A stretch of DNA of 64,000 bases, from NCBI RefSeq assembly GCF_023101685.1, contig NZ_CP082164.1, positions 7,254,001-7,318,000 on the forward strand. The letters run 5' to 3'. The notes under the pieces were generated by a model, which saw nothing but the letters and a program-made list of their open reading frames with translations, was not told the DNA's origin and searched no databases. Source of the stretch: Bradyrhizobium sp. 186 (lineage in GTDB: Bacteria; Pseudomonadota; Alphaproteobacteria; Rhizobiales; Xanthobacteraceae). This document shows positions 10,244 through 25,598 of the stretch, in pieces. Position 1 is the stretch's first letter, and every line of letters begins with the position of its first letter. A program made the translations under genes and the position numbers.

Positions 10244-10277
10244 TCGGAGATAGGGCCGCTGCGACGTTGCGCTTCCC

Positions 10278-10295
10278 TTCTCCCCTTGTGGGAGA
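10278..10295. repeat. Putative left attachment site (attL core)
   Basis: ttctccccttgtgggaga is identical to the 18 bases at 33185-33202. The usual right half of this palindromic element (gaag..ggcgcgaagcgccgg) is missing here but present at the other copy, as expected if an insertion split it. Confidence 0.55.
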
Positions 10296-10404
10296 CCTTC
10301 CGACGTAAAAAGTGTTGAGAGATCAAAGGCTCGGCGGGTCGGTATCCGCCGAGTGTCAGGAATGGCCTCCCCGCGCCCTATCGCTTGGCCCGGTCGTACC
10401 ATTT

Positions 10405-11376
10405 TCACTGGTCGATTTGATTAGCCTCTCCGCGTAGAGTAGCTCGAATTGTCGCAGCCATAGCATCTTCAGCTTTCTTGAGATCACTTGGGTCCCAAAG
10501 GATTGTCAGCATATGGTTCGTATCGAAATGCGTCCTCGATTGTTCCCACGCACCGATTTCGCAGGTGTAAATGACCGGGATTCCGCGTCCCTCGGCAAAG
10601 CCCGCCTCCCAATATGCTCCGTGGCTGCCATGGGTTAGGTCCGCAACGACAAATCTGGCGGATAAGAGAGCCGCTCGAATTTTGTCGTCTATCAATCCTG
10701 CCGCCTGCTGATCTGTAAGAGTTCGAAGCTCAAACCCTGTTCGAGCGACCGCCGGTTTGAAGCATTCCTGAACGGCTTGATCGAGCGATGCGTCGTTGAA
10801 CTTCAAAGCCATAAAGGCTGTGCGGCTCTCGACCCGCTGCTCCTTTAAGTGCTCATATCTCTCCCAACCTTCCATCGTAAGCTGCAAGCGCACCTTTCCG
10901 CCTGCTCCATCGATGAGGCGGTAGAGCCCTTTCGGCTCCAGTTGCGAGTGTAGCCAGCCCCAACCTTGTGAGTCGCCGCCGGACGACAAAGCGATTCCGA
11001 TCGTCGCGGCCACGATGGAAGCAGTGGCTTCGGCCCAAGCCGATGGAGTTTCTTGATTGTCCCCAACCCAAACGATGAAATTATCTGCTTGTTCGATAGG
11101 CGTCGGGAGTCGCGCCTCGCTCCAGAAACTCGGTAGTTCTTCGCTACGGATAACGCGAAGATGCTTGTTCTCCGGAAGTTGCATCCTGCGGAGCGTGTAG
11201 CTCATCAGTGATCGGCGCAGCGAGACTTCGCCTAGCCGTGTCTCCAGAGTGGTCTCCGCGCTGCCAGACAGTATAAACACACCACACCTTGGACAGTCAA
11301 AGCGCGCAAAGTCTCCCTCACCAGCTTGGCGGGATGCGTTCGGTGTGTTGCAGACAATACAATTCGGCATGGTCAT
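10405..11376 (-). CDS. Zinc-ribbon protein with C-terminal nucleoside deoxyribosyltransferase-like domain
   Basis: The 323-residue protein starts with a zinc-ribbon-like pair (CIVC near residue 6, CPRCG near 29), then a middle region with no recognisable motif, then a Rossmann-like domain from about residue 185 beginning AFMALKFND. That domain keeps VVADLTHGSHGAYWEAGFAE with GIPVIYTC, matching the D...ExGxA...GxPV pattern of nucleoside 2-deoxyribosyltransferases and the wider TIR-related group; the Glu of WEAG would be the catalytic residue. It is the last gene of a tight minus-strand trio with SLATT and TIR genes (11-base gap), so it probably acts on a nucleotide as sensor, signal processor or effector. 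The biochemical activity is untested. Confidence 0.7.
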   Translation of the reverse strand: MTMPNCIVCNTPNASRQAGEGDFARFDCPRCGVFILSGSAETTLETRLGEVSLRRSLMSYTLRRMQLPENKHLRVIRSEELPSFWSEARLPTPIEQADNFIVWVGDNQETPSAWAEATASIVAATIGIALSSGGDSQGWGWLHSQLEPKGLYRLIDGAGGKVRLQLTMEGWERYEHLKEQRVESRTAFMALKFNDASLDQAVQECFKPAVARTGFELRTLTDQQAAGLIDDKIRAALLSARFVVADLTHGSHGAYWEAGFAEGRGIPVIYTCEIGAWEQSRTHFDTNHMLTILWDPSDLKKAEDAMAATIRATLRGEANQIDQ

Positions 11377-11387
11377 CAGGCGGCGCT

Positions 11388-11846
11388 TTAAGCCGCGCTC
11401 TCGTTCGGTTTCACTTTTGCAGGGTCATACTCCTGCCGGGTAATCCATTTTGCGTGTTCGGTAGAGACGAGTGCCTCGACCCTTTCGACCAGCGCCTTCA
11501 TCGCTCGTGCGTCGTCCATCCCGTCATACGATCCCGATCTTGCTAGATAAGAGTATTTTTCATGGCGTAACGCTTCGCATGTCGAGCGATACGTGATCCA
11601 GTTGTGTTGCCATTGGTTGAGTTGCTGCAGGCCCTCTAGAACAACTGCACCAGCACCTATCAACGCGGTGATCCTGGCATCTGCTAGAAGGGCGGTAATC
11701 GGGACAAGCCCGCTAAGCACAAACTCGCACAGTTTGATGTTCTTAAACCAGCGCTGCGCGTTTACCGACTTTCCATCGTACCACCGAATTTGCTGTTCCA
11801 GACGCTGGTAGCCAGAGTTCGGTTGGTCATCGGGAGTTGCTGTCAT
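11388..11846 (-). CDS. SLATT-domain (DUF4231) membrane protein
   Basis: The 152-residue protein reads QIRWYDGKSVNAQRWFKNIK, then two adjacent hydrophobic segments (residues about 38-75, around LSGLVPITALLADARITALI and the following GAGAVVLEGL) and the HNWITYRSTCEALRHEKY segment typical of SLATT/DUF4231. Such proteins are predicted two-helix pore formers that respond to nucleotide signals in bacterial conflict systems. Its start overlaps the stop of the upstream TIR gene (ATGA), indicating coupled translation. The N-terminal MTATPDDQ start was chosen because of that overlap. Confidence 0.8.
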   Translation of the reverse strand: MTATPDDQPNSGYQRLEQQIRWYDGKSVNAQRWFKNIKLCEFVLSGLVPITALLADARITALIGAGAVVLEGLQQLNQWQHNWITYRSTCEALRHEKYSYLARSGSYDGMDDARAMKALVERVEALVSTEHAKWITRQEYDPAKVKPNESAA

Positions 11847-12238
11847 TTTGCGTTGATCAAATTGGCGAGACGATTGTGGTCCCAGAGATACCACGGCAAG
11901 CTCAATTGCCGTGCGAGCGCGGGCAGCGTCAACGTACTCGGTCCGCCGGCTAATCCCATGAAGATGAGCTTGTTGCCCTTTCCGAAACTCTCCTCAAGTT
12001 CCCAATCAACCCATCTACTGGTATGAGTGAGATCGCTGACCATGCACACGGTCACCGACGTGCGCGCAATCCTCTCTCTAATCTTTGACTTGATATATCT
12101 TGAATCCTCGCTGTCGATAGCCGTTCGCACAGACTCGTCGTAGAACTCAATATCGAACCTGTCGTTTGCTGCCAGCAGGCGAAGCCCGTTCACCTGAGCT
12201 TTGTCCTCGTGCCTAAAACTGAGAAAAACCCTTTTCAT
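11843..12238 (-). CDS. TIR-like domain protein (DUF1863 / ThsB-like)
   Basis: The 131-residue protein starts MKRVFLSFRHEDKAQVNGLR, the beta-A/box-1 pattern of DUF1863 TIR-like proteins, and has SVTVCMVSDLTHTSRWVDWE, where the Glu of WVDWELEES is the expected catalytic glutamate. Thoeris ThsB proteins share this fold and make a cyclic ADP-ribose-type signal from NAD. A run of G before the ATG is a strong ribosome site. It is the first gene of the three-gene cassette, so the simplest model is signal production here, pore opening by the SLATT protein, and a role for the deoxyribosyltransferase-like protein. The model is inference. Confidence 0.78.
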   Translation of the reverse strand: MKRVFLSFRHEDKAQVNGLRLLAANDRFDIEFYDESVRTAIDSEDSRYIKSKIRERIARTSVTVCMVSDLTHTSRWVDWELEESFGKGNKLIFMGLAGGPSTLTLPALARQLSLPWYLWDHNRLANLINAK

Positions 12239-12825
12239 AACCCCCCAGAGAAAAGAACTAACTAGTCAATCGCAACCTCCGGGCGAGGGCAACGGCCAAA
12301 TTCTCGCTCGGACAACTGAGTTGTGAGTAACGCAGGGGACGACCTGTCCCGACAGGGGCCGGCTCGTGCCGTGTGATACGGAAGTTGCCCCTGAGAGGGC
12401 AAGATGTGGGGCAGCCGCCTTGATTTGGCCCACCACGCAGCCGGTGGTCCGACATGTTCGCCCGGGTCGGCATCTTGCGGGCTTCTAATGCCCATCTGTC
12501 AGCCGAAAGGTCCGGCGCCAACAGAAATCATCGCATTTAGCGCCTCCGCTAATGCGCAATCGATCGACCCGTCCATCGTGACTTCGACGCTCGGGCGTAT
12601 CGAAAGAGCATCTACAAGTCGGCCCGACCTTGACCCGGTACTCCTAAAATACGGCGGGCTCGGTGATGATGTGCTCGGCGATCAAGTAAGCCTTCGGCAT
12701 AGCCGCTCTCCCGCATGGTCTCCTGGTCAGAAGCCTATCACGGATCGGCAAGTCACCGAATGCGACGAGTGGATGACCAAATCCATCCGGACGCAAGGCC
12801 AGGGCCGAGCGGGCGGGCGGCTCAT

Positions 12826-12912
12826 ATGGCGAAACCGCCAGTGGAAACCCTATCCGACTTCGAACATCGACTGGACGATCTGCTTTTCGCGTTGATACTA
12901 CGCCAGAGGTGA
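12826..12912 (+). CDS. Possible small protein (28 aa), function unknown
   Basis: The frame encodes a peptide beginning MAKPPVETLSDFEHRLDDLL and ending LRQR. Its amphipathic helix-like pattern is more protein-like than the sequence upstream in the same frame. A terminator-like hairpin begins 11 bases after the stop, suggesting that a transcript ends here. There is no clear ribosome site, so this is tentative. Confidence 0.3.
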   Translation: MAKPPVETLSDFEHRLDDLLFALILRQR

Positions 12913-12922
12913 TTTGGAACAG

Positions 12923-12950
12923 CCCGGTCAGCGCGAAGCTGGCCGGGTCT
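12923..12950 (+). terminator. Hairpin terminator
   Basis: cccggtcagc-N5-gctggccggg forms a stem of ten pairs, one of them a G-T wobble, followed by tcttaaatttt. A nearly identical hairpin follows the next small gene at 13468. Confidence 0.6.
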
Positions 12951-13182
12951 TAAATTTTGCGCCACCGAGCCGTCTGCCCCAACTTCGCCAATTGTTGGCG
13001 CTCGATTGGAGCACGGAGGCCGCCGACCTGACCCGGACGGCTTCAAGGCGCTTTGGCGCCGCAGGCATGGCAAGGCAAGGCGACAACGCAACGCAATGAT
13101 GTCGACCTTGCTAGGCTCTTCATGGCGAGCATGGTCAGGGCCTAGAGCCGCAAGGTCTCCCTCAAAACCGATGGAGACCACA

Positions 13183-13446
13183 ATGGAAGAAGAACTACAG
13201 GAGCATTTCGTCACAGTATTGAGACAGTGCGTCGATAACGGGATGAAGTTGCCCTTCATTGTTTGCGCCATCAGCCCGAATGGAAGCGCGCTGGTGATGC
13301 GGATCAACGATGGGCGCGGACCGGACACTCTGGCACAGCACTTTGAGGATTACGCCTTCAAAACGCCCGTCCACATCACGGTGGTTGACCATCACGGCGA
13401 GGCGGCGCGAGTAGTGATCACAGGTGGCGCGATCAGCTATCAGTAG
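13183..13446 (+). CDS. Conserved-looking small hypothetical protein (87 aa)
   Basis: The protein begins MEEELQEHFVTVLRQCVDNG, continues with a compact alternating pattern (LPFIVCAISPNGSALVMRI) and ends VVITGGAISYQ, suggesting a small folded alpha/beta domain. The ATG at 13183 has ggaga six bases upstream; an ATG at 13171 is in frame but less well placed. A terminator hairpin follows 21 bases after the stop. No function can be assigned from sequence. Confidence 0.65.
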   Translation: MEEELQEHFVTVLRQCVDNGMKLPFIVCAISPNGSALVMRINDGRGPDTLAQHFEDYAFKTPVHITVVDHHGEAARVVITGGAISYQ

Positions 13447-13467
13447 ACTGTCTTCTAGCAAACATGA

Positions 13468-13500
13468 AACCCGGTCAGCACATCGCTGGCCGGGTTTTGT
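13468..13500 (+). terminator. Rho-independent terminator
   Basis: aacccggtcagc-acatc-gctggccgggtt makes a strong stem followed by a T-rich tail (ttttgtatttt). It lies immediately downstream of the 87-residue hypothetical gene. Confidence 0.75.
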
Positions 13501-13967
13501 ATTTTGAAACACGCTGAAACGCGCCATTTGGCTGCTGGTGTGTTACCGGGGCACGGCCAGTCCCTCGCGTAAACGCATGGACGGGCGGCCCCGGCCGAGT
13601 AAGACAAAGGGCCGAGCGACGGGCTGGTCTTACGGCGGAATCCCGCGAATGTGGTCAGAAAGCAAAATGGCCGCAGATTGCTCTGCGGCCCACCGAAATG
13701 AAGTATCTTTCCGTACTGAAATGGTCTGCCCCGGCGCGAACTGCGTTGTAGCGCGAATGGCGTTGCAATGTGATCCGTGCGTCTACGGTACGTCGAAGGT
13801 CGCATGAACGCCGGCGCTGCCGGTTCCTGCATTTGAAACCGTGCTCACCTGACGGCCACCTCACTTGAGGGCAGCACCGCATTTGCACGGGCAGCCAAGA
13901 TTAACCTAATCTTAGAGTTGTGCAGATGATCTGCGTCTTATGAACATCGAGGGAGAGGTTCCCCCCC
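13501..13967. other. Intergenic stretch without recognised gene
   Basis: Open frames exist on both strands (about 90-125 codons) but none has a recognisable domain, a good ribosome site or protein-like composition. A ggagaggtt near 13951-13959 serves as ribosome site for the next gene. Confidence 0.5.
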
Positions 13968-14453
13968 ATGCTCAAAGGCGGAACTTATGCGGCGTGGTTC
14001 AAGACGCCGCTGGGCCAAGGCACCGGCATTGTCCATGTCGCAGACGGCAAAATCTGGGGCGGTGATAGCATCATGAGCTATAGCGGTTCTTGTGAAGTCG
14101 ATGGAGATCGGTTCACCGCGACCGTAACGCTCAAGAGGCACACCGAAGGACACGCGACGGTCTTTGGTGCCGATGACCTTACGCTTCGGCTTGAGGGAAC
14201 GTGCCCCGGCAAGATAGCTCGATATGTCGGCACAGCCGAACAGGTCCCCGGCGTGCTCCTTGAGGGCACGCTCATCCTGAGCGAACAAGCGCCGCTTCGA
14301 CGTGAGGCGCAAAGAATGACATATTTCATCGCCGCCGATCGATACGCTAAGTTGCTCAGTGCGGAACAGAGGCTCAGTTCCGGAAACTCCCATATTCGCA
14401 CGGCAGCGGTCCTTTACCTAGCTTTAGGCAAACCGGCTCTCTACCGTAGGTAA
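13968..14453 (+). CDS. GrlR-like regulatory protein, C-terminus atypical
   Basis: The first 105 residues match the GrlR-like pattern seen twice more in this window: MLKGGTYAAWFKTPLGQGTG, a DGKIWGGDSIMSYSGSCEVD segment, ATVTLKRHTEGHATVFGADD and a final beta strand ending LEGTLILS. GrlR of enteropathogens is a small beta-barrel repressor of type III secretion; in rhizobia relatives are common and their roles largely unknown. The usual tail FDPSKLPxLPKR of the sister copy is absent and replaced by about 55 unrelated residues, suggesting a frameshift or recombination at the 3' end. It may still encode a functional barrel. Confidence 0.65.
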   Translation: MLKGGTYAAWFKTPLGQGTGIVHVADGKIWGGDSIMSYSGSCEVDGDRFTATVTLKRHTEGHATVFGADDLTLRLEGTCPGKIARYVGTAEQVPGVLLEGTLILSEQAPLRREAQRMTYFIAADRYAKLLSAEQRLSSGNSHIRTAAVLYLALGKPALYRR

Positions 14454-14476
14454 CCACAGCGGACGAGGGAAACCCG

Positions 14477-14886
14477 ATGTTCAAGGACGGAACATACTCC
14501 GCATGGTTCAAGACCTCACTTGGCGAAGGTACAGGCATCGTTCACTTCGCAGACGGCATGCTCTGGGGTCGCGACAGCATCATCAGCTATGGCGGCTCCT
14601 ATCAAGTGGACGGCGATCGATTTGCCGCAACGGTGACAACCAAGAGACATGCCGCAGGCCATCCGACTGTGTTCGGCATTGACGAGATCGACTACAACTC
14701 GTGGAAATAGCCAAGGGCACTATCGTGACGTGCCAAGGGACGACCGATGCAGCACCGGGAATGGTCTTAGAGGTGACGCTCATTTTCAACCAAGGCTCAT
14801 CAGCCGCGCGGGATACGGCGCGACCGGCGGTGAAATTCGACCCGAGCAAACTGCCAAGACTGCCGAAGCGTTTCCCAAGCCGCTGA
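14477..14886 (+). pseudogene. GrlR-like gene broken by a frameshift
   Basis: The first frame (14477-14710) encodes MFKDGTYSAWFKTSLGEGTG and the conserved barrel strands up to FGIDEID, then runs into a stop. The remainder continues in the other frame from about 14692 (VEIAKGTIVTCQGTTDAAPG, ending FDPSKLPRLPKRFPSR). Loss of a single base near 14692-14693 explains the break; restoring it gives a normal-length protein. It is a tandem paralogue of the preceding gene. A sequencing error cannot be excluded. Confidence 0.7.
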
Positions 14887-15114
14887 GCGAGAACACTCGC
14901 ACCGGACGCCGACCGATCGGCACAGCGCTTTAACCGACGATCCGGTACGCCTCTTGGCACGCCTCCGTCGAGGGCCTGCGATCGGCTTTAGCCGGTCGAG
15001 CGCGCGCCTCGCCGATGCAGGCGAACATCGTTGGGCCGCCAAGAGCGGCCATCGTGGGCAAGTATTCATTGCGCGATATATCGCGCACCCCACGGCACCG
15101 CTCCTGATTGCCTT

Positions 15115-17019
15115 TCACGCCCGTATCGAGCCGGGCCAAGCGACCACTTGCCCTGACATAACAAGCCGGTTGCGTCCACCCTCTTTGGCGGCGTAGAGCG
15201 CCCTATCCGCAGCCCCTATCAACGACGCGCAATCCGCCTTATCGGCGGCCGCCATTTGTGTCGCGCCGCCGATACTCAGGGTGACCTGCCTGGATGGCGG
15301 GTTGAGCGTGTGCAGGATGCCGAGTTCCTGAATCGCTTGCTGGACTCGTTCGCCGACCTGCTCGCAACCCCTTGCATCGGTGTTCGGTAACAGCAAGGCG
15401 AATTCCTCTCCACCATACCGAGCCGCCACATCAGCGGGTCGTCTGGCCTGCTCCACTAAAACTCTGGCGATTGAACGAAGGCACGCATCGCCTGCCTGAT
15501 GCCCATATTGGTCATTGAATCTCTTGAAATGATCGGCGTCCATCAGCAACAGCGACAACGGCGCTCCCTCGCGCCTCGCCCGGTCCCATTCCTCCTCTAG
15601 CCGCTCGTCGAAATGTCTGCGGTTCGCCAACGCCGTCAGGCCATCCGAAATGGCGAGAGCCGCCAGCTTATCCTGCAGATCCTTATGTTCGGTCATGTCG
15701 CGCGAGATTGCCACCACGCCGTTTATGTCACCACTTTCCGGACTCCTGGTAACGCGCAGCGCGGTTTCGATCCAGATCTCTCCCTTCTCGCGATGACGAG
15801 TGCGATAGATGATCCTCGCCTCTTCGGCTTCGCCGTTCCTCAACGCGGAGATCGTTTGCTGAACCCGTGGCAGGTCCACGGCATCTATGCCGGCGAGAGC
15901 CGACGTATCCACCAATTGGTTCGGAGCCCAGCCAAGAATTCGTGTACTGGATGGCGACGCATAAAGGATTCGTCCATCAACCCCTATGCGCATGACCATG
16001 TCTCCCGAGTGCTCCGCGAGGAGGCGAAAATCCGCTTCCTTGGCGAGCAGGGCAGCCGACATCCTTTGCCGTTGGTGCAACTGACGCACCAGCAAGAGAC
16101 CCGCAACAGCAAGCCCCCCTGCCAGACCCAGCACCACAGCTATGCGTGTCACCGCGGCTTTACGCCAGGGCGCCAAGACGTCGTCTTGCGATTCTGTGGC
16201 AACCACGATGACGGGGTAGCGACTGCTCAGTTGATAAAAGCTCAGACGCTGAACGCCGTCGAGAGGCGATTTGAAATAATAGGAGCCTGTAGCTGGCCAC
16301 TCACGGAGATGCTTGAAAAGCGGCGCATTAGACAGGTCACGGCCTGTATAGCCGTTATCCGGACTACGTGCGAGGACAATGCCGTCTGCACTCGCTAGAG
16401 CGATTGAACCGTTCTGGCCCACGTCGAACCGGCCATAAAATTGTAAAAAATAGTCAACATCGATCGTCGTAAGGGCGACCCCGGCAAAGCTGCCGTCAGG
16501 ATGATTGAAACGCCTTGACGCGGTGATGATCCATTGCCCGCCCGGTCTACTCTTCACCGGATGGCCAATAAAAGTTCCCCGATCAGTCGAGGCACGATGA
16601 TGCTGGAAATATTCGCGGTCGCTGTTGCTGAGACCGGCGAAATTCACAGGCTCGCTGGTCGCGAGCCAGCGGCCGGTTTCGTCATAGACGAATACGCCGC
16701 GGATCCGGTTCGCGGCTTTGCGGCGAGTAAGAAAAGTCTGAATCTTGGCGATCGCCGCGGGGCCGGTTCCCTCCAGTTCGAGTTGGCCGACCAGCACGTT
16801 GAGAACGGTGTCCGTGAGTTCGAACGTATCGTCCGCTTGTTGCGTCAGCGATCGGGCCAGATTGGCCATGTCCGTTTCGGCGCTCTTCAGCTCCGTTAGT
16901 CGCGAGGACCACTCCCGCCAACCGCTGAGTACGACAATCGCCATGCAAGCGGTTGCCACGAAAGCCGAGGCCCAGAACGTCAAACGCCCATGGCGAAGAT
17001 CACTGCGGTGGTCGATCAA
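15115..17019 (-). CDS. Membrane diguanylate cyclase (Cache-PAS-GGDEF)
   Basis: The 634-residue protein has a transmembrane helix at residues 14-34, a periplasmic Cache-type sensor (residues about 45-290, with YFQHHRAS and PVKSRPGGQWIITASRRF), a second helix near 290-312, a PAS domain (about 325-445) and a C-terminal GGDEF domain. The active site reads GGEEF at 536-540 and an RxxD inhibitory site (RPAD) lies five residues before it, so it should make c-di-GMP with product feedback. The start is TTG, supported by a ggagg ribosome site. It lies next to a PilZ-containing glycan synthase, which it may activate. Confidence 0.9.
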   Translation of the reverse strand: MIDHRSDLRHGRLTFWASAFVATACMAIVVLSGWREWSSRLTELKSAETDMANLARSLTQQADDTFELTDTVLNVLVGQLELEGTGPAAIAKIQTFLTRRKAANRIRGVFVYDETGRWLATSEPVNFAGLSNSDREYFQHHRASTDRGTFIGHPVKSRPGGQWIITASRRFNHPDGSFAGVALTTIDVDYFLQFYGRFDVGQNGSIALASADGIVLARSPDNGYTGRDLSNAPLFKHLREWPATGSYYFKSPLDGVQRLSFYQLSSRYPVIVVATESQDDVLAPWRKAAVTRIAVVLGLAGGLAVAGLLLVRQLHQRQRMSAALLAKEADFRLLAEHSGDMVMRIGVDGRILYASPSSTRILGWAPNQLVDTSALAGIDAVDLPRVQQTISALRNGEAEEARIIYRTRHREKGEIWIETALRVTRSPESGDINGVVAISRDMTEHKDLQDKLAALAISDGLTALANRRHFDERLEEEWDRARREGAPLSLLLMDADHFKRFNDQYGHQAGDACLRSIARVLVEQARRPADVAARYGGEEFALLLPNTDARGCEQVGERVQQAIQELGILHTLNPPSRQVTLSIGGATQMAAADKADCASLIGAADRALYAAKEGGRNRLVMSGQVVAWPGSIRA

Positions 17020-17196
17020 GAAATGCTTCCTCCACCCTTGGAACCTTTACACGCCTCGGGTTAAGGCACGGTTGCTCCTTTCGGTTGACGTTTGTGGCAG
17101 AGCACCAGAAGGAGAGTGACCACGTCGATTGACGCTAGAATGCCCCTCGATACCTGATGGATGCTCGGACAGTAGGAGAACAGTCACAGCATCAAG

Positions 17197-19395
17197 TCAG
17201 CTTGATGGCCTAGAGAGCACCGTGCCGGCCACTCGGCCAAACCTAGGTCCGGTGAACCCAGGTTCGGTGAAAGTTGTCGGATGCACGCTTCGAACTCCGG
17301 CAAGGTGTACCAAATCGTCGGTCGGCGGTCGGGGTCGAATGACCAGGCTCTCCGCCGGTAAACGCTCGGCCGGCGACACGGGTTTCGCGCCGCCTGTGAT
17401 CAAGATCGGCAACGGGGTGTGCATGAGCCAGATGTTCTTAAGCATCGCCCTGTTCACCGAATAGGCGACAGCATTGTTCTTCCTCAGAAAGGCACCGGTA
17501 AACAGCTTCCGGATCAGTAGGTCTCGCTCGATCGACGGCGGCAAGTTGAACTGCACCCCGACGAGTTGCCCCCTTTGTTGCATGACGGTCGCGTCGATCC
17601 AGCCTACTTGCGCGACATGGACGTGCAGCAATGCTCCACGGCAAAGAGAGTTGACACCGCAATCGAGAAGTATGCCAGCGCCGGAGAGAGATACGTCCTT
17701 GACCCGACCGGACAGCCGCTCCCCGGTCTCGGTCCTGATCAAGATCGGCTCGTCGATCACGACGCGTTCCTCGGTACGAGGCATGCGCGCCTGGAGCGAG
17801 GTCATGCAAACGAAAAAGAGCACCACAATGTTCACCACAGACCAGAAGGCGACCATTGGCAATGCGGCCGGATGATCGATCACCCGCCATTCCGGGATCG
17901 TGTTCACGACCAGACCGACAACCGTCAACGCCATCAGCGTCGCCGACGGCCAGAATATCTCCGCGGCGTAGCTTGCGCACCGCGCGGCAGCCCCCTTGGG
18001 CGTCACCCTAAACGCATGTCCCTTCGGCTTAACGAGAGTCCCGAGCACCGTCGGCAGAATTTTGAAGCTCTGGATCGTCGCCGACACCTGAGCGGCGAGC
18101 GGAAAGTGCATGTGCGGCGCAAACCAGGAGATGCCGCCGTTGAGCGCCAGGATCGCGGGGAACAAGTAATAGAAGACCGACTCAGGGGTGACGTCGACGA
18201 CAGGCGCTAGCCCAGTCCACATGAACACGATCGGAACCACTACGACCATGAGCGCCCGCAAGCCCAATGAGAGCCAATGGGTCGGAAAGAACAGGAGCCG
18301 ATGCATCAAGCCCAGTCCGGGGCCGAGCGGGCCGGCGGCGAGATACAGAGTCTGGATCGCGCCACGCGCCCAGCGTTGGCGTTGCACGAAAAACGCGCCA
18401 AGGCTTTCTGGCGCCAATCCAATTGCCAGGGGCTCGTGAAGATAACGGGTGATGTACCCTTTGCGTAGCAGGACCAGCGTCAGCAGGATGTCTTCGGTAA
18501 TGGACTGGGTTGGCAAGGCATCCCCAACCACGCGAAGTGCTGCACGACGAGTGACCGAGTTGGAACCACAACAAAAGGCACCATCCCAGCCATCGCGCGC
18601 GGGCATGATGGAATCGAAGAAGAAGCGCTGCTCGTCCGGCAGTCCCCTGTGCAGGCCGAGATTCGCCTGCATCGGGTCCTCATTGTAGAAGGTATGAGGG
18701 GTCTGAACGATCCCGATCTTTGGATCGGCAAAGAAGCCGATTGTGCGCATCAGGAAATTGTGCTGCGGCACGAAATCCGCATCGAAGATCGCGAAGAACT
18801 CGCCATTTGTCTTCGTGAGGGCGTGATTGATATTGCCGGCCTTGGCATTCGCGTGGTCAGCGCGCGTGAGGTAGCCTGCACCCTTGTGCTCGCAGAGTTC
18901 CTTGAGCCAAGGCCTGCGACCATCATCCAAAACCCAGACCTGGAAGTTAGGATAGTCCAGGCACAGTGCACCCGTGACGGTCTTTTCCAGCACCTCGAGT
19001 GGCTCGTCGTAGGTGGGAATAAAGACATCGACCGAGGGCAGCGCATCGTCCGGCTGACCACGAAGCCGACGTTCGTGCTGATCGGCTTCGTTGCGGCGAT
19101 CGGTTCTGCGAAGGAACGTCAGATAGAGAATGAACTGATCTGTGAAGGTCAGAAGCTCGACGAAGAGACAGAACCAGATCCAGCCGACCTGATACCAGGT
19201 CCCGCTTGCCGGCAGCACGGTGGTGAAAATACGCCATTCGAGATAGCGGGCGACCACAAGCCAAACCGCGATAAAGACCGCGACGCGCGCCCAAAGGCGC
19301 GCGACTGGAAAGGTCGGCGCCAACAGGTACATCGCCGCAAAGATGCCCAGCATCGGCGCGAACAGTTGAGAGAGAGGCAGAGTCATGGCCTGCAT
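17197..19395 (-). CDS. Processive family 2 glycosyltransferase with PilZ domain (cellulose synthase-like)
   Basis: The 732-residue inner-membrane protein has four N-terminal hydrophobic segments, a GT2 domain (about 120-390) with VDVFIPTYDEP, DDG, FDADF, TED and the processivity motif QRQRW, several more membrane helices, and a PilZ domain with the RxxxR (RTEER) and DxSxxG (DVSLSG) c-di-GMP-binding motifs. It probably polymerises and exports a beta-glucan when c-di-GMP is bound. The partner gene upstream is an HlyD-type fusion protein rather than BcsB, and no bcsZ/bcsC genes are nearby, so the polymer need not be cellulose; mixed-linkage glucan or another polysaccharide is possible. Confidence 0.88.
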   Translation of the reverse strand: MQAMTLPLSQLFAPMLGIFAAMYLLAPTFPVARLWARVAVFIAVWLVVARYLEWRIFTTVLPASGTWYQVGWIWFCLFVELLTFTDQFILYLTFLRRTDRRNEADQHERRLRGQPDDALPSVDVFIPTYDEPLEVLEKTVTGALCLDYPNFQVWVLDDGRRPWLKELCEHKGAGYLTRADHANAKAGNINHALTKTNGEFFAIFDADFVPQHNFLMRTIGFFADPKIGIVQTPHTFYNEDPMQANLGLHRGLPDEQRFFFDSIMPARDGWDGAFCCGSNSVTRRAALRVVGDALPTQSITEDILLTLVLLRKGYITRYLHEPLAIGLAPESLGAFFVQRQRWARGAIQTLYLAAGPLGPGLGLMHRLLFFPTHWLSLGLRALMVVVVPIVFMWTGLAPVVDVTPESVFYYLFPAILALNGGISWFAPHMHFPLAAQVSATIQSFKILPTVLGTLVKPKGHAFRVTPKGAAARCASYAAEIFWPSATLMALTVVGLVVNTIPEWRVIDHPAALPMVAFWSVVNIVVLFFVCMTSLQARMPRTEERVVIDEPILIRTETGERLSGRVKDVSLSGAGILLDCGVNSLCRGALLHVHVAQVGWIDATVMQQRGQLVGVQFNLPPSIERDLLIRKLFTGAFLRKNNAVAYSVNRAMLKNIWLMHTPLPILITGGAKPVSPAERLPAESLVIRPRPPTDDLVHLAGVRSVHPTTFTEPGFTGPRFGRVAGTVLSRPSS

Positions 19396-19407
19396 GGAAC
19401 ATCTCGC

Positions 19408-20688
19408 TCACAGGGACGACTGGTCGAACTCCAGGCGAGCGGTCAGCCATTTCAACTTCGAGCTGACCAATCGTAGCAGGCCGTCGGCTCTGCGCTCGAA
19501 GCGCACCTCAGCCAACCGTCCGATATCGCAGGAGCCGTTGCGGTCGGCCGACGTCTCATTGGGCGAAAGCGATATCTCAACGGTAATGTTGCCCGGATCA
19601 GGCCGTGGCACCCGAGCCGCAAGCAGCCGATCATCGCCGTACGCTGCCGATCCGCGGACTTGCCGGATCTGGCCGATCTTCCATTCGCGACTCCCAATCA
19701 GGCGGACGGTAGCCGCATCTCCGGCCTTGATCTTCTCGAAATCGCGCTCGGGTAGTTCAACAACGATAAACCGACGCTCGCAATCTGCAAAATCGAAGAC
19801 CGATTGCCCTTCCGTGACCATCGAGCCAGGGCTGGCCGCGACCGACCAGACCACATGGGCTGCGGGCAAAGCCAGATCGTAGTGATCGAGACGATCAAGT
19901 CGAGTGCGTTCCTCGGCGATTTCCGCGGCCAGCTGCGCGGCACGCGAGCTGTTCTGCAACAGGTCTGTCTCGAGCTCCTGGCGGCGGAGGACAAGCCGCT
20001 CGCGCTGCTGCTGAGAATAGGGCACGTCATTGGCATCGCCACGAAGATAAAGACCCTTCTCGGCCGCCCCCAACTCGGTCTTGAGGCGCTGCAGGCGTTG
20101 ATCGGCCATCTGGCACCGCGTTGCGGTTGCCTCCTGGGAAGCTTGAGCCTCAGCGGAGCGAATCTGCGAACTGATGCCGAGCTTCACGAGCCTCTCCATC
20201 CGGCCCGCGACATCGTTCCGCTGCCGCGCCTCGGCGAGACAGCCGCCTTTTTCAACTTCCGTTTCGCCGATCTCGTGGCTCAGGCGCGCGACCATCCCCA
20301 AACGATAGTCCTCGCTGCGGTCGCGGAGCTTGCGATCGAGCTCGGCGATTTCCTCGAGTTGCCGGCGTGCGAGCTCGGCGCGTTTGGTGGACATGGCAAG
20401 CTGCTGATCAAGGTCCATGAGGTGCCGGCGATCCGGCGAACGCGCCTCGACCAGCGGCACCACCCGGGTGCGCTGGAAATATTCACCCTTGCGTGGAAGG
20501 TCTGACGAGAGCTGACCCGCAAACGGTGCCGTCACCCGCATGAGCTCGGCATTGACGAATGCGGAGGGAGCGATCCGATAGGTCACATACGGCAGCAGAG
20601 CCCATCCGCTCAGAGCGATGATCCCGAGCGCCAGGGAGCGACGGACAATCCGGCTACGAATGAAACGTTCGATATGCAAGCGAACCAC
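19408..20688 (-). CDS. HlyD-family membrane-fusion protein, partner of the glycan synthase
   Basis: A single N-terminal transmembrane helix (LALGIIALSGWALLPYVTY) is followed by a split biotinyl-lipoyl-like beta domain (VTAPFAGQLSS... and ASPGSMVTEGQSVFDFADC), flanking a long coiled coil rich in Arg, Glu and Leu, then a beta-barrel domain. The likely start is GTG at 20688 with ggaga upstream; the frame is open further upstream. Its stop lies 12 bases before the synthase start, so the two form an operon analogous to Alg44/Alg8 or BgsB/BgsA type pairs. It should span the periplasm for polymer export. Confidence 0.85.
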   Translation of the reverse strand: MVRLHIERFIRSRIVRRSLALGIIALSGWALLPYVTYRIAPSAFVNAELMRVTAPFAGQLSSDLPRKGEYFQRTRVVPLVEARSPDRRHLMDLDQQLAMSTKRAELARRQLEEIAELDRKLRDRSEDYRLGMVARLSHEIGETEVEKGGCLAEARQRNDVAGRMERLVKLGISSQIRSAEAQASQEATATRCQMADQRLQRLKTELGAAEKGLYLRGDANDVPYSQQQRERLVLRRQELETDLLQNSSRAAQLAAEIAEERTRLDRLDHYDLALPAAHVVWSVAASPGSMVTEGQSVFDFADCERRFIVVELPERDFEKIKAGDAATVRLIGSREWKIGQIRQVRGSAAYGDDRLLAARVPRPDPGNITVEISLSPNETSADRNGSCDIGRLAEVRFERRADGLLRLVSSKLKWLTARLEFDQSSL

Positions 20689-21041
20689 GACTAGATCTCC
20701 AATGGGCTTTGAATCGCTGAGTCTGACCCAGTGAACGCTCACAGGCGTTCGCCGCAGGTCCCGCGTTGGTGCGAATCTGCGCCCTCGAAGGCATGGAGTT
20801 GCCACTCCAAATCAGGGCTCGCCGCAACGGCAAATCCGGGCTCGCAACCGAGAGACGTTCGGTCGAGCTTTCACCACATTGAATTGCGCACTGTCAAAAC
20901 CGGAAGAGTACGGTCCCGGAAGAGGGATCAAGATGCAAACTCGTTCCGACTTGAAGTCAGCGCGTCGTTTGCGCCTCGTCGAGCAACGTGAGGCCACGCA
21001 AAGCCGAGCACGAAGGAAACCGGAACCTTCAAATTAATCGC

Positions 21042-21382
21042 ATGGCCAAGGCACCCGGCATCGTTCACGTCGCCGACGGTCAATCAGGGGTCGTGACAGG
21101 CGTCATGAGCTACATCGGCTCCTGCCAAGCCGATGGCGACCGACTCACCGCGACCGTAACGACCAAGAGACCATACTGAAGGGCAGTCCACCGTATTCGG
21201 CAACGACGCCGAACTGGAGCTAAAGCTCACTGGCACATGTATCCGGCAGGATCGCCACTTACGTCTTACGTCGGCACGGCTGAGCAGTTCCCGGGAGGCG
21301 ATCCCCCGTGCCTAGGGCGAACGAGCCGATGCCAAAATTCGATCCCGCTAAACTCCCGAAACTGCCAAAGCGCTTCCGCTGA
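21042..21382 (+). pseudogene. Degraded GrlR-like gene, third copy
   Basis: The stretch reads MAKAPGIVHVADGQSGVVTG, then SYIGSCQADGDRLTATVTTK, a premature stop, and then recognisable pieces in other frames, ending KFDPAKLPKLPKRFR. The order matches the two GrlR-like genes at 14 kb. The N-terminal strands are missing and at least two frame changes are needed, so the copy is dead. Confidence 0.6.
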
Positions 21383-21550
21383 TTGGATTGTGAGCCAGCG
21401 CGCGCTGACGGTGGCCGTAGTCTTACGGTCTGGGAACCTTGACCTTGCTCAAGCCGGCGCCCCGGTTGCCGGTTAAGTCTCGCTCAGTTGCGAAAATTTG
21501 GAGCGCAACAAGGGGGGCTGTGGGTTTCCCTTTGATAGAAGTTCACCCGA

Positions 21551-21574
21551 GAGGCCGCCTTAACCGGCGGCCTC
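21551..21574. terminator. Perfect 9-bp hairpin
   Basis: gaggccgcc-N6-ggcggcctc lies downstream of the broken pilin gene on the minus strand. It lacks a T-run on either side, so it is a probable but weak terminator. Confidence 0.4.
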
Positions 21575-21593
21575 TTCGGTCAAGGACCTGGCC

Positions 21594-21754
21594 TTATTTC
21601 AGCGAGCTGCTGATCGAACCAAACTTGTCATTGAAGCTGGTGCCGAGGCCGTTAACCACGGTAATGTTCGCCAGCGCAATGTCGGCTGCAATCAGTCCGT
21701 ACTCAATCGCGGTCGCACGTTTTCATCTGTAATGAAGCGCTCAAGCAAAATCAT
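21594..21754 (-). pseudogene. Flp/Fap-type pilin gene with frameshift
   Basis: Read on the minus strand, the C-terminal two thirds give the Flp pilin core TAIEYGLIAADIALANITVV followed by NGLGTSFNDKFGSISSSLK and a stop. The N-terminal part (MILLERFITDENV) begins at an ATG in another frame; a one-base loss near 21717-21719 separates them. Restored, it would be about 53 residues, the usual Flp pilin size, with the Glu-Tyr pair needed for processing. No tad/cpa assembly genes are nearby, so it is an orphan remnant. Confidence 0.65.
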
Positions 21755-22053
21755 TTTTCCTACCCTTGGCGCGTGAACCACAAGTCACCCCAGGCATTCG
21801 CGACTTTCAACGAGGTAATTCGATCTGTTCCGGTGCGGTTAATAGCTGTGAACCCGAAGTCCTCCGGCGTGCGGTCATGCGCGATACGGATATCCGGCCG
21901 ACGTTTCTTTCCGGGTGAACGTGCGCCGAGTTCCACGTACTACGTTGTTCTTCCGGGATAGTCCTACCGCGAACAACCGGGCAAAGAGATGGACATTTCA
22001 TTCCCGAATAATGTTTGCGTTCTTCCAGCAGTTTTGATCGACTGCCGGGTTTT

Positions 22054-22923
22054 TTACTCATGGTGGTGTCGGACAGCATCAAGTATTTCGGCTGAGATTC
22101 CTTTTTGCGCCTTCAGAGCTTCATATCCGGCTGTAGGATGGGTCTCGATGAGCGCTCGTTCTCCCGCATCGAGTCGCCCAGGCTTGTCGAGAATCGCGAG
22201 CGGTATCTTGGCTTTTCCAACGTCATGGAACAGCGCGGCTTCGTGCAGGCGTTCGAGATCGGCCCTTCCTACTCCGAGGCTAAGTCCGAAATCGATGGCG
22301 ATGCCCGTGACAAGCAGGCAGTGTTGATACGTACCTTCATGATGGCGGCGCACCGTTGCGAGCCAGTCAGTTAGACCATGTTCGGCGATGTGATCGGCGA
22401 GACTAGTGCCGGATTGTTTGGCACCTACCAGATCGACTGGCATCCCGCTCGTCATCGCCGTAAACAACGAAGCGATGGCACCTGCGGCAGTAGTGACAGC
22501 CTCCGAGTCGCGACCAACCTCTGTTTGGCCGCTCGCTGCCCTGCGGCCCTGAGAAAGGGCCTGCAACAGCTTAGCGGCGTTCAGATTGCCTGACAGCACC
22601 AGCGTAGCCCCCAAGGCATATGCCTGTGACACACACACGTGAGCAGGATTCTCGATCAAGAAAATGCGCTTTCGGGTTTGCTGAGCTCCCTCCAGCATGT
22701 TTTTCAGGGCAGGGATATTTTCGGTGGTACGCAAATCTACCCGTACGACTAAAGCTTCCGGATTTTCCGCCTTCAACGCGGCGTCACAGAGCAGGTTTGA
22801 GCTCACCGCGTGATCACGCTCGAGAATGGAGCGAACGCTCGATAGTTTCTTCGGGTCGTCGGCGACTATATGGACCAACATAAGAAAGTACCACTCGGTC
22901 AAAAAGCCGGGCCAAGGCGACAT
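22054..22923 (-). CDS. HD-GYP-related phosphohydrolase, C-terminally truncated
   Basis: The 289-residue protein has a receiver-like N-terminal domain (about residues 15-130) and an HD domain with the conserved YQHCLLVTGIAIDFG, LHEAALFHDVGKAKIP and HPTAGYEAL segments. It stops right after AVRHHHE, where full HD-GYP proteins continue with YLDGSGYP; the GYP half is therefore missing and the sequence beyond is degenerate. c-di-GMP hydrolysis is doubtful. An internal ATG at 22881 (MLVHIVADD) is an alternative start. It follows a small gene by three bases, so they are co-transcribed. Confidence 0.75.
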   Translation of the reverse strand: MSPWPGFLTEWYFLMLVHIVADDPKKLSSVRSILERDHAVSSNLLCDAALKAENPEALVVRVDLRTTENIPALKNMLEGAQQTRKRIFLIENPAHVCVSQAYALGATLVLSGNLNAAKLLQALSQGRRAASGQTEVGRDSEAVTTAAGAIASLFTAMTSGMPVDLVGAKQSGTSLADHIAEHGLTDWLATVRRHHEGTYQHCLLVTGIAIDFGLSLGVGRADLERLHEAALFHDVGKAKIPLAILDKPGRLDAGERALIETHPTAGYEALKAQKGISAEILDAVRHHHE

Positions 22924-22926
22924 CAG

Positions 22927-23151
22927 CTAACCCCAAAACGATCCTTGATCGTGCGGAGCCTCGTTCAGCCAGACGAGCGCCTCACGTGTCGCCAGCCGGA
23001 CGAGTCTTTCCTCCGTCGGTGCCGATGAGACCTCTTTGGAGAGGTAGAGCAGGAAACCACGCGGGTCGCGAAAGAGCGCCTCTTTCGCTTCACAAGGCAG
23101 CAGCGACTCTGTATCGATGGCCGGAATGGTTCGTAAACAGATCAATTCCAT
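22927..23151 (-). CDS. Small hypothetical protein upstream of the HD-GYP-like gene
   Basis: This 74-residue protein (MELICLRTIPAIDTESLLPC..., ending APHDQGSFWG) has no recognised domain. Its stop is three bases before the HD-GYP-like start, suggesting translational coupling, and it lies downstream of a PilZ gene on the same strand. Composition is protein-like and acidic-helical. Confidence 0.5.
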   Translation of the reverse strand: MELICLRTIPAIDTESLLPCEAKEALFRDPRGFLLYLSKEVSSAPTEERLVRLATREALVWLNEAPHDQGSFWG

Positions 23152-23180
23152 TGCGGGCGCGCCAATGATTTCGGTTGCGG

Positions 23181-23489
23181 CTATTTCTTTTCACCAGTCA
23201 TCGAGGATGGACGAGAACCACCTGGACCTAGAAAATGGACACCAGCCTCTGATCCCTCTAGCCGGACCAACTCGCATCGACGGAAAGCCAAGCCAGTCGA
23301 TGACAGCAACAAGAAGAACTCTCGGGCTCTGAGCACGTCTGGCGATCCATCTATCCGGAGTCTTGCACCTGTTTCCGAAACATCGACGAGTATGCAGTCG
23401 CGCCGCCATGTGCCGTCGGCGCCCAACAGAGTCGCTCGGCGTTCATGATCAAGGTGAACGCGCTTCGCATTGCGCTTATCCCAGCCCAT
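23181..23489 (-). CDS. PilZ-domain protein
   Basis: This 102-residue single-domain protein begins MGWDKRNAKRVHLDHERRAT, with an RxxxR-like basic stretch, followed by DCILVDVSETGARLRID containing DxSxxG, the PilZ consensus. It should bind c-di-GMP or serve as a PilZ-like adaptor. It heads a minus-strand group with the 74-residue and HD-GYP-like genes, and shares the neighbourhood with the GGDEF and PilZ-synthase genes. Confidence 0.8.
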   Translation of the reverse strand: MGWDKRNAKRVHLDHERRATLLGADGTWRRDCILVDVSETGARLRIDGSPDVLRAREFFLLLSSTGLAFRRCELVRLEGSEAGVHFLGPGGSRPSSMTGEKK

Positions 23490-24329
23490 CGGCTTGAGTG
23501 CCTTTCACGCGGGCCTCTAAATGGCTTTCAACTAACTAGGAGCGACCGTGAGCAAAAAGCGCTGCTCACCGCGGCAATCGCGTCCCCTGCACGACCAAAA
23601 TTGCGACTCAAAATAACGGACGAGTACTTGGCGATAGTCTCTCGCGATAGTTGTTAATAAGGACTAAATCCCACCACCCGTGCGAATCCGGTGCAGGTCA
23701 AGCGAGGTGGTTCCAAATGGCATTTGCGGCCGAACGGGGTTGAACCGCGTGAAATCGGCACGAGAGGGATCATTCAAGGCGGATCGGAACTCGGAATGGT
23801 CGAATGCAAGTTCTGAGGTTCAGCAAAATAGGTCCGACAGCGGCCGTGTGCCGCCGCAGGCCACGCCGTCTGATACGGTTGTTGTAACTGTCACTTACTG
23901 AACCGCAGAGGCACCTCAAAGACGTGCTGCCAGATTGCCTTCGCGTTCCGATCGCGCGACGACATTGAGTAGCTTTTTTGCGGTTCAATCGACCTGCGAG
24001 GCGGAGACGGTCATCGAATGCGAAACGAGTGCCTGATCTGTCTCAGCATCGCCATGGCGCCATCGTATATCGACCGTTGGTGAGATACTGATCTAACTGC
24101 GATGCACCAAGCAGCAGCAAGACTGTAATCACGAAACCCTTAACATCACGGGCCTCTCCGGTGGAAAGAGACCGCCAACCGAGCGTGTCCCGGGTTTAAA
24201 AGCTTCGGAATTCGCTGCCGCTAATCGCGACCTACCTGTAATGACGCTAGGATGACAACAACCCAGTAATAAATTCCTTAAAGGGCGGCTCGCGGCGTCG
24301 GCGGCGGACACGCTTGCGCTGGGCCGAGT
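23490..24329. other. Intergenic stretch without recognised gene
   Basis: Several frames of 60-73 codons are open but none has a domain, good ribosome site or biased composition. The stretch separates the c-di-GMP-related genes from small membrane and secreted protein genes. No repeat or RNA structure stood out. Confidence 0.5.
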
Positions 24330-24431
24330 TCAGAGCACCACCAATAGGATGAAAATGCCGATCTCGATCAGGAGAACGATGCCCGCGATGGCCGAGCACA
24401 AGAACGGGTCACCTGGCGATGGGGGTCGCAT
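24330..24431 (-). CDS. Small single-helix membrane protein (33 aa)
   Basis: The frame encodes MRPPSPGDPFLCSAIAGIVL followed by LIEIGIFILLVVL and a stop: a short polar N-terminus and one 20-residue hydrophobic helix. A GAGG-containing ribosome site lies a few bases before the ATG. Function is unknown. Confidence 0.55.
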   Translation of the reverse strand: MRPPSPGDPFLCSAIAGIVLLIEIGIFILLVVL

Positions 24432-24484
24432 GGCCTCGCCTCGTTCCGGACGAGCCCCAAAGCGAAAAAATTCCTCCTCGCCGT

Positions 24485-24793
24485 TTAGTCGCAGCGGCGC
24501 TCCCTGCGCGTAACCATACGGCCATCACGTTCGACCGTGACAGTCTCGGTGCGGCAGCGCTGTCTTGGGCCGACGGTGACACCTCCGGGGCCGACGCCAA
24601 CTGTGGTGTCACGGTCGTATCGGTCGCGGTCGTAGCGGTCACGGTCCCTATAGTAGCGGTCCTCGCGATCCCGTCCGATCTGGACATCAACGCCTTGAGC
24701 CATCTTGACGCCTTGGGCGTTGGCCGGAATGGCAAGCGGGGCAGTCGTCAGCAGCGCTGCGGCTGCCGCCACGGCAAGAGCGATCTTCAACAT
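24485..24793 (-). CDS. Secreted protein with RDRYDRD repeats
   Basis: The 102-residue protein starts MLKIALAVAAAAALLTTAPL and has an AxA-type cleavage near PANAQG, followed by a charged repeat region (RYYRDRDRYDRDRYDRD) and a C-terminal segment with two cysteines (QRCRTETVTVERDG...RRCD). It is probably periplasmic. The ATG at 24793 was chosen for its signal peptide and the nearby AAGGAGGA ribosome site. Function is unknown; similar small RD-rich exported proteins are common in rhizobia. Confidence 0.8.
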   Translation of the reverse strand: MLKIALAVAAAAALLTTAPLAIPANAQGVKMAQGVDVQIGRDREDRYYRDRDRYDRDRYDRDTTVGVGPGGVTVGPRQRCRTETVTVERDGRMVTRRERRCD

Positions 24794-25032
24794 GAGGAAG
24801 TCCTCCTTGGGGCTTGATTTAGCGGTGCAACGGGCACGAGCGCTGAGGGTTCCTCCGGGCAATCAAGAGAGGACAGGGTAGCACGGCGTTTCGAGCGGAC
24901 CCTTTGGCTCAAGGTACTTTGGGGTCTGGAACCGGCCCGGGATCGCGGGACCGCGCCTCTTCCGCATATTTGGCGGTGGGCTTTTCCGAGTTTTGTTCCA
25001 CTGCTAGTATTGCGCGATCAGCGAGATAGGCG

Positions 25033-25248
25033 ATGCAATCGAGGCTGGAAACGGCATGGCGGGCATGGCAGTCGCTTTCGCGGATCGAGAAGGCGCAGTT
25101 TCTCGGGTTGTTCCGTGAGCAGTATGCGCGGGAGCGTCAGCGCGCGACGATGGCGCGGAAGAACGGCCATGCTGGTCATGGCGCCAGGATATCGAGCCTG
25201 ACGGACCTGAGATTAAGCGAGGCGGACCTGCAACGGAGCGGGCCATAA
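25033..25248 (+). CDS. Small hypothetical protein (71 aa)
   Basis: The protein starts MQSRLETAWRAWQSLSRIEK and has a helical, charged N-terminal half (AQFLGLFREQYARERQRATM). The sequence upstream (gcgagataggcg) is a weak ribosome site. No domain is recognised. Confidence 0.5.
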   Translation: MQSRLETAWRAWQSLSRIEKAQFLGLFREQYARERQRATMARKNGHAGHGARISSLTDLRLSEADLQRSGP

Positions 25249-25598
25249 ATCGCCGCCCATGCGTTCTATCGGTGAGGGCTACGCCGGCCGAGCCCGCTTG
25301 CGTAAATCGCGGTAAACCGGCTTACCGGGGGCTGGAAATCGCAAGACGGCTGCGGCTCAACAAGCGCCGCCGATTTTGTTTTCGGTCCGGGCGTCTCAAC
25401 TCGCGGTGTGGCAACTTCCGCTTCGCCCTACGGAGCCGCCGCAACGAGAAGGGCGGAAAGAGTCCGGGTTGGGCCAAGAGCGGTCATTCGGTCGACTGGC
25501 TCCGGCGCCCGAGCAATACGGTTTGGCGAGACTCCGCCACGGCCGACGCCCGCGGGGCGAGCGACCGCATCTTGAGGTATTTCCCGTCAGACGAGCCA
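25249..25598. other. Intergenic stretch without recognised gene
   Basis: Open frames exist here but none shows a domain or a credible start. It contains the region downstream of the MipZ-like gene on the minus strand. Confidence 0.4.

Follow-up and report, generated by a model that had tools for sequence, protein, structure and literature searches.

The stretch of DNA analysed here, called the window throughout, comprises 64,000 nucleotides of Bradyrhizobium sp. 186 (contig NZ_CP082164.1, positions 7,254,001-7,318,000), and all coordinates below are window positions unless a locus is named. On its minus strand three open reading frames (ORFs) are packed together; they encode, in this order, a TIR protein, a SLATT protein and a zinc-ribbon protein whose C-terminal domain weakly resembles nucleoside 2-deoxyribosyltransferases (NDTs) and TIR domains, here called gene 3 (Table 1). 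This cassette is considered as a candidate anti-phage operon of Thoeris-like design. The host genome (G000) has a size of 10.8 Mb, and the top named matches of the TIR protein are from Bradyrhizobium. At the TIR/SLATT junction, AAAATGACAG, the two genes overlap by ATGA, as they also do in a second genome of the genus, G172, and 11 bases lie between the SLATT stop and the gene 3 start; the ORF positions agree with the one-strand packing described in an earlier, sequence-only reading. The SLATT length of 152 amino acids is counted from an ATG, the GTG start of a longer frame, at 11894, falling inside the TIR gene. With 539 homologues of the TIR protein, 856 of the SLATT protein and 1598 of gene 3 at E<=1e-3, the three ORFs are more than chance. 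The terminator-like stem below gene 3 is not significant, since two such sites occur in the region and 2.4 are expected from shuffles.

Table 1. Cassette genes, predicted catalytic codons and other features of the window.
Feature	Position	Strand	Basis
TIR gene (ThsB-type), 131 amino acids	11843..12238	-	PF08937; PADLOC ThsB models
SLATT_1/DUF4231 gene, 152 amino acids, predicted membrane effector	11388..11846	-	DUF4231 and SLATT_1 profiles above cut-off; hydropathy
Gene 3, 323 amino acids, zinc ribbon and NDT/TIR-superfamily-like C-terminal domain	10405..11376	-	conserved residues; weak PF05014
TIR codon Glu80, predicted catalytic Glu, motif WVxWE	11999-12001	-	invariant in 20/20 rows
Gene 3 codon Glu257, predicted catalytic Glu (GAYWEAG)	10606..10608	-	invariant in 27/27 rows
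Terminator-like stem, 8 pairs (7 G-C), 3' of gene 3	10330..10353	-	
Inserted segment, about 23 kb, absent from five relatives	10244..33366	.	edges between 10241-10295 and 33185-33366
Integrase-like gene	31764-33035	-	PF00589 E 3.7e-5, 24.0 bits, below cut-off 27.1

The first protein matches ThsB_TIR (PF08937) with E 8.6e-20 and 71.5 bits (cut-off 21.2) as well as the ThsB models of PADLOC. Residues W76, V77, W79 and E80 are invariant in all 20 rows of its alignment, the window reading WVDWE, and Glu80 is aligned with a Glu in each of the three solved chains matched, namely 9b7d (ThsB1), 6lhy (DUF1863) and 8fz9 (TIR). By its PF08937 score and by the position of Glu80 on the Glu of 9b7d it is a ThsB-type TIR with the predicted catalytic Glu by which Thoeris is recognized. 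A search of the order found the TIR in 16 of 397 genomes; apart from the host none exceeded 48% identity. TIR relatives of 48% identity or less often stand in company other than SLATT. A CD-NTase, the mark of the cyclic oligonucleotide-based anti-phage signalling system (CBASS), was also looked for, and none of the three cassette proteins matches a CD-NTase model.

The second protein scores E 2.2e-20 against DUF4231, E 2.4e-7 (31.2 bits, cut-off 26.3) against SLATT_1 (PF18181) and E 8.7e-34 (116.3 bits, cut-off 41) against the NCBIfam model SLATT_1 NF033634, which makes it a family member by curated score. Hydropathy analysis places two hydrophobic stretches side by side between residues 37 and 73; no PADLOC model matched the protein. 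The TIR and SLATT/DUF4231 assignments of the sequence-only reading are upheld by these above-cut-off profile matches.

The TIR gene and the SLATT gene are a real unit. They are adjacent and co-directional in the window, joined by the ATGA overlap, and the same pairing recurs in viral contigs, where 59 SLATT loci were found with a diverse SLATT alignment. A TIR was counted there if its ORF lay no farther from SLATT than 1.5 kb on the upstream side or 2.5 kb on the downstream side, by means of a TIR profile grown from the same loci in three rounds and seeded by 11 earlier TIR genes. It was present in 58 of the 59 loci; in the sole exception, L204, the contig breaks off on the upstream side of the locus. 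There is redundancy among the loci: at 90% identity, the 56 whose SLATT ORF is intact collapse into 39 clusters, of which 38 have a TIR. Among the 55 loci with both a full SLATT ORF and a TIR, the nearest TIR lies within 300 bases in 54 and on the same strand in all; the order is SLATT-TIR in 50 and TIR-SLATT, as in the window, in five. The top TIR and SLATT matches (117 and 115 distinct source-contig sizes) have 38 equal sizes in common, compared with 1-5 in shifted controls. Together, the viral loci, their clusters and the shared contig sizes bear out the proposal that TIR and SLATT act as one unit. Those of the phages and phage satellites with TIR-SLATT that were opened carry integrase or repressor genes nearby. 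A conserved TIR-SLATT neighbourhood of firmicute phages has already been predicted in print, with SLATT as a membrane effector regulated by ADP-ribose derivatives (PMC9503650).

Outside viruses, six plasmid SLATT records gave an adjoining TIR in three (two Staphylococcus and the archaeon Natronomonas), and no TIR was matched by the window's TIR in the records of Streptomyces and of two Halocatena plasmids. On the Halocatena marina plasmid (L152, 3462-5323), SLATT adjoins a SAVED-domain protein whose N-terminus appears, by eye, TIR-like. The class-level SLATT search gave eight matches besides the own genome, five of which were opened, and a TIR was present in G699 and G917; searching the phylum with the SLATT alignment yielded five genomes of 398, the own one included, and the search of the genus around G328 none of 146.

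Gene 3 encodes an N-terminal zinc ribbon (C6, C9, C28, C31), a middle region and a C-terminal NDT/TIR-superfamily-like domain (residues ~180-323). The four Cys residues, F188, Y255, W256, E257, F284 and D285 show no variation across all 52 alignment rows, and in a set of 27 rows that includes four distant plasmid homologues Glu257 is invariant throughout. Similarity to the family Nuc_deoxyrib_tr (PF05014) is weak (E 0.0077, 16.8 bits), so that membership by score is ruled out at the cut-off of 28.8 bits; 37 of the 52 gene 3 members match PF05014 at E<=0.01. The PADLOC model Effector/TIR, which we take to represent a CBASS effector, matches residues 203-298 with E 4.4e-6, and no match to ThsB_TIR or DUF4062 was obtained. 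In the comparison with solved structures, the full-length profile retrieved no NDT, DNPH1 or TIR chain, its best match being a chemotaxis protein (E 0.069). The profile of the C-terminal domain had its best match in Rcl/DNPH1 (E 0.035), with nucleoside 2-deoxyribosyltransferase at E 1.5. The weak Rcl/DNPH1 match places E257 on the Glu of the GYELG stretch, presumably the catalytic residue of that enzyme. Where the best 120 homologues have a source name, it is usually "hypothetical protein" and in some cases "nucleoside 2-deoxyribosyltransferase".

Set side by side, the TIR of the window reads VSDLTHTSRWVDWELE and gene 3 reads VADLTHGSHGAYWEAG. Profile-profile comparison of gene 3 with TIR gave low probabilities, namely 2.8% (E 0.016), 5.3% (E 0.0072) and, for the C-terminal domain, 17% (E 0.0015), and Glu257 falls on the TIR Glu in all three of these weak alignments. 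Gene 3 and TIR are probably members of one enzyme superfamily (TIR/NDT), with Glu257 as the common residue. The catalytic-looking Glu noted in the sequence-only reading has held up, being invariant and standing, in the weak alignments, where NDT and TIR proteins have their catalytic Glu. In NDTs and DNPH1 this residue is bonded to a Tyr, at a position where Phe or Ala is usual in TIR domains (PMC11204291, PMC12578639). An invariant Phe of gene 3, F188, lies upstream of E257 and may correspond to that position.

The SLATT type of the window occurs in two of 195 Bradyrhizobium genomes, the host and G172, and a gene 3 homologue follows SLATT in both. Gene 3 matches over residues 5-321 or more were found in four of the 195 genomes (the host, G149, G139 and G172), and any gene 3 match in 24, among them G094 with a two-piece match covering 6-299. 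Identity to the window's proteins is 80% for the TIR and SLATT proteins of G172 but only 37% for its gene 3, which starts ~90 bases past SLATT at an inferred TTG. In the tree, the gene 3 of the window stands in a 23-row clade (support 100/100) excluding the copy of G172, which pairs with that of G139 (100/100, branch 1.65); only the piece after an in-frame stop represents G172 there, and its exact placement is unsure. As distant branches stand behind TIR-SLATT in the window and in G172, either the slot has been filled on two occasions or one gene has replaced another; at least two fillings are probable. Two metagenome contigs of 2342 and 13378 bases (jgi) appear to hold close homologues of all three proteins on the basis of size coincidence only, and their gene 3 proteins (P0002, P0006) are sisters of the window's gene 3 in the tree. 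Only this triple coincidence, in which all three proteins are from jgi, was used and not the pairwise ones, equal contig sizes of gene 3 with TIR (3; shifted controls 0-4) and with SLATT (4; controls 0-3) being at or near chance. The trio was thus found only in Bradyrhizobium (window and G172) and, by size coincidence, in these two contigs.

Elsewhere the surroundings of gene 3 are varied. A scan of 83 of the 222 neighbours listed, nearly all of them immediate and on the same strand, revealed scattered defence genes and no fixed partner: each PADLOC family accounted for at most two of the 83, one neighbour matched Effector/TIR models, and the commonest Pfam family was ETF with seven, five of which come, by similarity, from one Planctomycetes operon. 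In the Planctomycetes loci L049, L056, L063, L075 and L076, the gene 3 relative lies tightly between genes for a 303-amino-acid protein (ETF in L049) and a protein of ~135-147 amino acids. In L064 (6655-8948) two NDT-like ORFs overlap by four bases, the second just upstream of a gene 3 relative, and the viral contigs L179 (2722-3687) and L180 (2797-3825) carry gene 3 relatives without TIR or SLATT.

The occupants of the slot after TIR-SLATT in other loci bear on what gene 3 might do. A second TIR is the next gene in three of five readable loci with this order, namely a ThsB-type TIR in L202/L173, a TIR_2 protein in L203/L174 and a ThsB-type TIR in L193, where the SLATT protein is a SLATT_3-SLATT_1 tandem; L205/L172 ends at the slot and is therefore outside the five. 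On a Leptospira plasmid (L268, 1-1983), a SEFIR-domain gene is followed 12 bases on by an NDT-like gene that is distantly related to gene 3 and scores above the PF05014 cut-off. Second TIRs in the same place suggest that gene 3 is rather a second sensor or synthase, and together with the SEFIR-NDT pair they favour, in small numbers, a second sensor or enzyme over a protein that degrades the signal. The role in modifying or degrading the signal that had been proposed from the sequence has no direct support.

Further arrangements were seen around TIR and SLATT genes. In tight arrays with QueC, TIR occurs with or without SLATT (L157, G699:C27, 7330-10686; L193, an Agrobacterium leguminum plasmid, 223-4801; L195; L196), QueC being assigned by Pfam in L157 and by annotation in the other three. 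The order is SLATT, a 330-amino-acid gene, Ogg-HhH glycosylase, QueC and TIR in L157, and TIR, a hypothetical gene, QueC, TIR, SLATT and TIR in L193; an HhH/DNA-lyase-type gene is present in L157, L195 and L196. We take these arrays to resemble, in part, the ancillary genes of type IV CBASS. A term search of the main text of a QueC family survey (PMC13329287) found no mention of Thoeris, SLATT or Toll. Nmad2, MazG-type and uracil-DNA-glycosylase-type genes stand beside TIR and SLATT in L158 (G917:C187, 5207-8706) and beside TIR, with SLOG and SIR2 genes, on a Cupriavidus plasmid (L198, 2139-6390); these are possible modified-nucleotide-linked TIR systems. In one of the 59 viral loci (L234, 1188-4806), SLATT and TIR are directly preceded on the same strand by an NDT-like gene, an S24-type repressor and a lipoprotein-like gene, in that order. 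It was not counted as support, the NDT-like gene being distant and ~2.1 kb upstream of SLATT with the repressor and the lipoprotein-like gene between.

We tentatively favour a reading of the cassette as a Thoeris-like abortive-infection operon in which gene 3 would be an exchangeable accessory of the TIR/NDT superfamily, likely a second sensor or co-enzyme. Upon infection, TIR would, by means of Glu80, convert nicotinamide adenine dinucleotide (NAD+) into an ADP-ribose-type signal, and this signal would gate or cluster the SLATT protein in the inner membrane, leading to cell death or arrest. Gene 3, positioned where some related operons have a second TIR, would serve as a second infection sensor or as a co-enzyme of TIR and would thereby widen or sharpen sensing or add signal, as in the staphylococcal pair ThsB1/ThsB2. 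In staphylococci, ThsB1 binds a capsid protein and recruits ThsB2, by which the signal is made (PMC12578639). The core likely works like Thoeris, identity as Thoeris not being claimed. NAD+ use and membrane action would be expected from what is known of the two families, while for gene 3 the sensing or synthesizing role is purely what we infer.

Several findings weigh against this reading. The TIR/NDT-likeness of gene 3 derives from low-scoring matches and is weak. No TIR was detected in three of the five opened class-level SLATT loci (G843, G747, G926), and SLATT was present in one (L193) of the five plasmid TIR loci opened (H14, H16, H26, H28, H29). There is no second TIR in L210/L178, with a helix-turn-helix (HTH) gene and a BglII-type gene, or in L257, with nothing on that strand, and the commoner SLATT-TIR order is mostly without one. 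The gene 3 of G172 contains an in-frame TAG, and the long matches to gene 3 in G149 and G139 have neither TIR nor SLATT nearby (within ~7 kb in G139). Finally, narrow and broad profiles found neither TIR nor SLATT beside gene 3 relatives in any of 80 loci of other genomes, which are the best 80 of 167 found, cover many phyla and have flanks of up to 8 kb, shorter at contig ends. These loci rule out an obligate partnership of gene 3 with TIR-SLATT, and they do not support the expectation that the three genes would occur together in unrelated genomes.

The same 80 loci, the two viral contigs and the lack of a fixed partner among the 83 sampled neighbours would suit an arrangement in which TIR-SLATT is complete in itself. 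Gene 3 would then be a defence gene in its own right, encoding a nucleotide hydrolase or TIR-like NADase that carries its own zinc-ribbon sensor, and would merely share the operon and island. This is possible, if somewhat doubtful, but it leaves aside that copies from two distant branches lie directly behind TIR-SLATT, at 11 and ~90 bases, in both Bradyrhizobium genomes with this SLATT. Gene 3 might also be an N-glycosidase of DNPH1-like or NDT-like type, which would break down nucleotides, perhaps modified ones of the phage, or remove the TIR signal and so limit self-toxicity, as the weak PF05014 match in 37 of 52 members and the Rcl/DNPH1 and NDT matches of the C-terminal profile would allow. 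We regard it as improbable: the window protein remains below the PF05014 cut-off, the full-length profile matches neither enzyme, and gene 3 mostly occurs without TIR, which makes a dedicated signal-degrader unlikely. That the cassette is not anti-phage at all, and is instead an island-maintenance or toxin-type module whose SLATT protein damages membranes upon island loss or stress, appears very improbable; its position at one end of an insertion that also carries an integrase-like gene would fit, but the presence of TIR-SLATT in many phages and phage satellites suits superinfection defence, and no antitoxin-like partner was seen.

The left flanking dehydrogenase gene was found at 87-88% identity in five of 20 relatives searched, and all five (G009, G008, G002, G005, G011) jump directly from window 10241-10295 to 33185-33366, so that ~23 kb have been inserted here. 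The cassette forms the left end of this segment, as anticipated in the sequence-only reading, and the integrase-like gene the right end; over the cassette the G+C content is 0.55-0.58, down from about 0.65. Ten ORFs of the island were scanned and six had a Pfam match (GGDEF/PAS, PilZ glycosyltransferase, HlyD-type, HD, MipZ, AAA_25); the integrase-like ORF was among the ten, its PF00589 match appearing at a looser limit only. Within the same insertion (15115-20805), the GGDEF/PAS protein, the PilZ-domain glycosyltransferase and the HlyD-type protein look like an exopolysaccharide/cyclic di-GMP cluster. A second segment of ~3 kb (~35.4-38.4 kb) is likewise absent from the same five relatives.

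Compared with described systems, the core TIR-SLATT pair is known by prediction, and the third component appears to be new. The firmicute-phage neighbourhood has the same adjacent genes for TIR and a SLATT protein with two transmembrane helices; it sometimes includes an HTH regulator or a zincin-like peptidase, a zinc-ribbon NDT-like gene not being mentioned in the passage on it (PMC9503650), and the order in the viral loci is mostly the reverse of that in the window. GTPase-centred conflict systems combine a TIR-type effector (or PNPase) with SLATT, but are much larger, have GTPase cores and show no NDT-like third gene in the passages on them (PMC7159879). Type II Thoeris with TM-macro ThsA likewise pairs a ThsB-type TIR with a two-helix membrane effector (PMC11204291), whereas the effector of the window is a SLATT protein without macro domain, accompanied by the extra zinc-ribbon/NDT-like protein. 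Staphylococcal Thoeris ThsA-B1-B2 unites two TIR-superfamily proteins and one effector in one operon, yet its effector is the NAD+-degrading ThsA (PMC12578639), and gene 3 has a zinc ribbon and is without a ThsB_TIR match. The DUF4062 "Swarozyc" NADases of defence islands contain a TIR-like domain with distant TIR/NDT similarity and a conserved Glu; unlike what is found here, they assemble with the phage portal (PMC13174449) and belong to a family that gene 3 does not match. With PF05014/DNPH1, gene 3 shares weak profile similarity around its Glu loop, while it lies below the family cut-off and has the extra zinc ribbon. The effectors of Thoeris types I, II and IV are SIR2, TM-macro and caspase-like proteins (PMC12847820); SIR2-SLOG, TM-macro and caspase-like effectors have no match in the three cassette proteins, the partner here being SLATT_1/DUF4231. 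The numbering I, II, IV implies a type III Thoeris, on which no text was found in open-licence PMC papers, and TIR-SLATT may already bear that name. In searches of the same literature, outside which most subscription papers lie and which is thus no proof, no TIR-SLATT-NDT system turned up; the sequence-only reading, too, knew of no described system with this third component.

Beyond the single operon, it is conceivable, though rather unlikely, that gene 3 represents a new class of signalling component, namely a zinc-ribbon sensor or second synthase from the NDT branch of the TIR superfamily that serves a SLATT effector in the place of a second TIR. On that view, the many gene 3 relatives without TIR-SLATT would be sensor-effectors of an unrecognized defence family, and nucleotide-signalling defence would draw on the whole NDT/TIR superfamily. 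The variety of genes next to TIR-SLATT hints that systems of this kind are able to recruit a range of sensors or enzymes. If the favoured reading of the cassette holds, TIR-SLATT would be a Thoeris-type core whose occurrence spans an archaeal plasmid and phages of staphylococci and streptococci, with a modular accessory slot occupied by a second TIR, a QueC/glycosylase set or a zinc-ribbon NDT-like protein. The large gene 3 family, with its 1598 homologues, would acquire a testable function.

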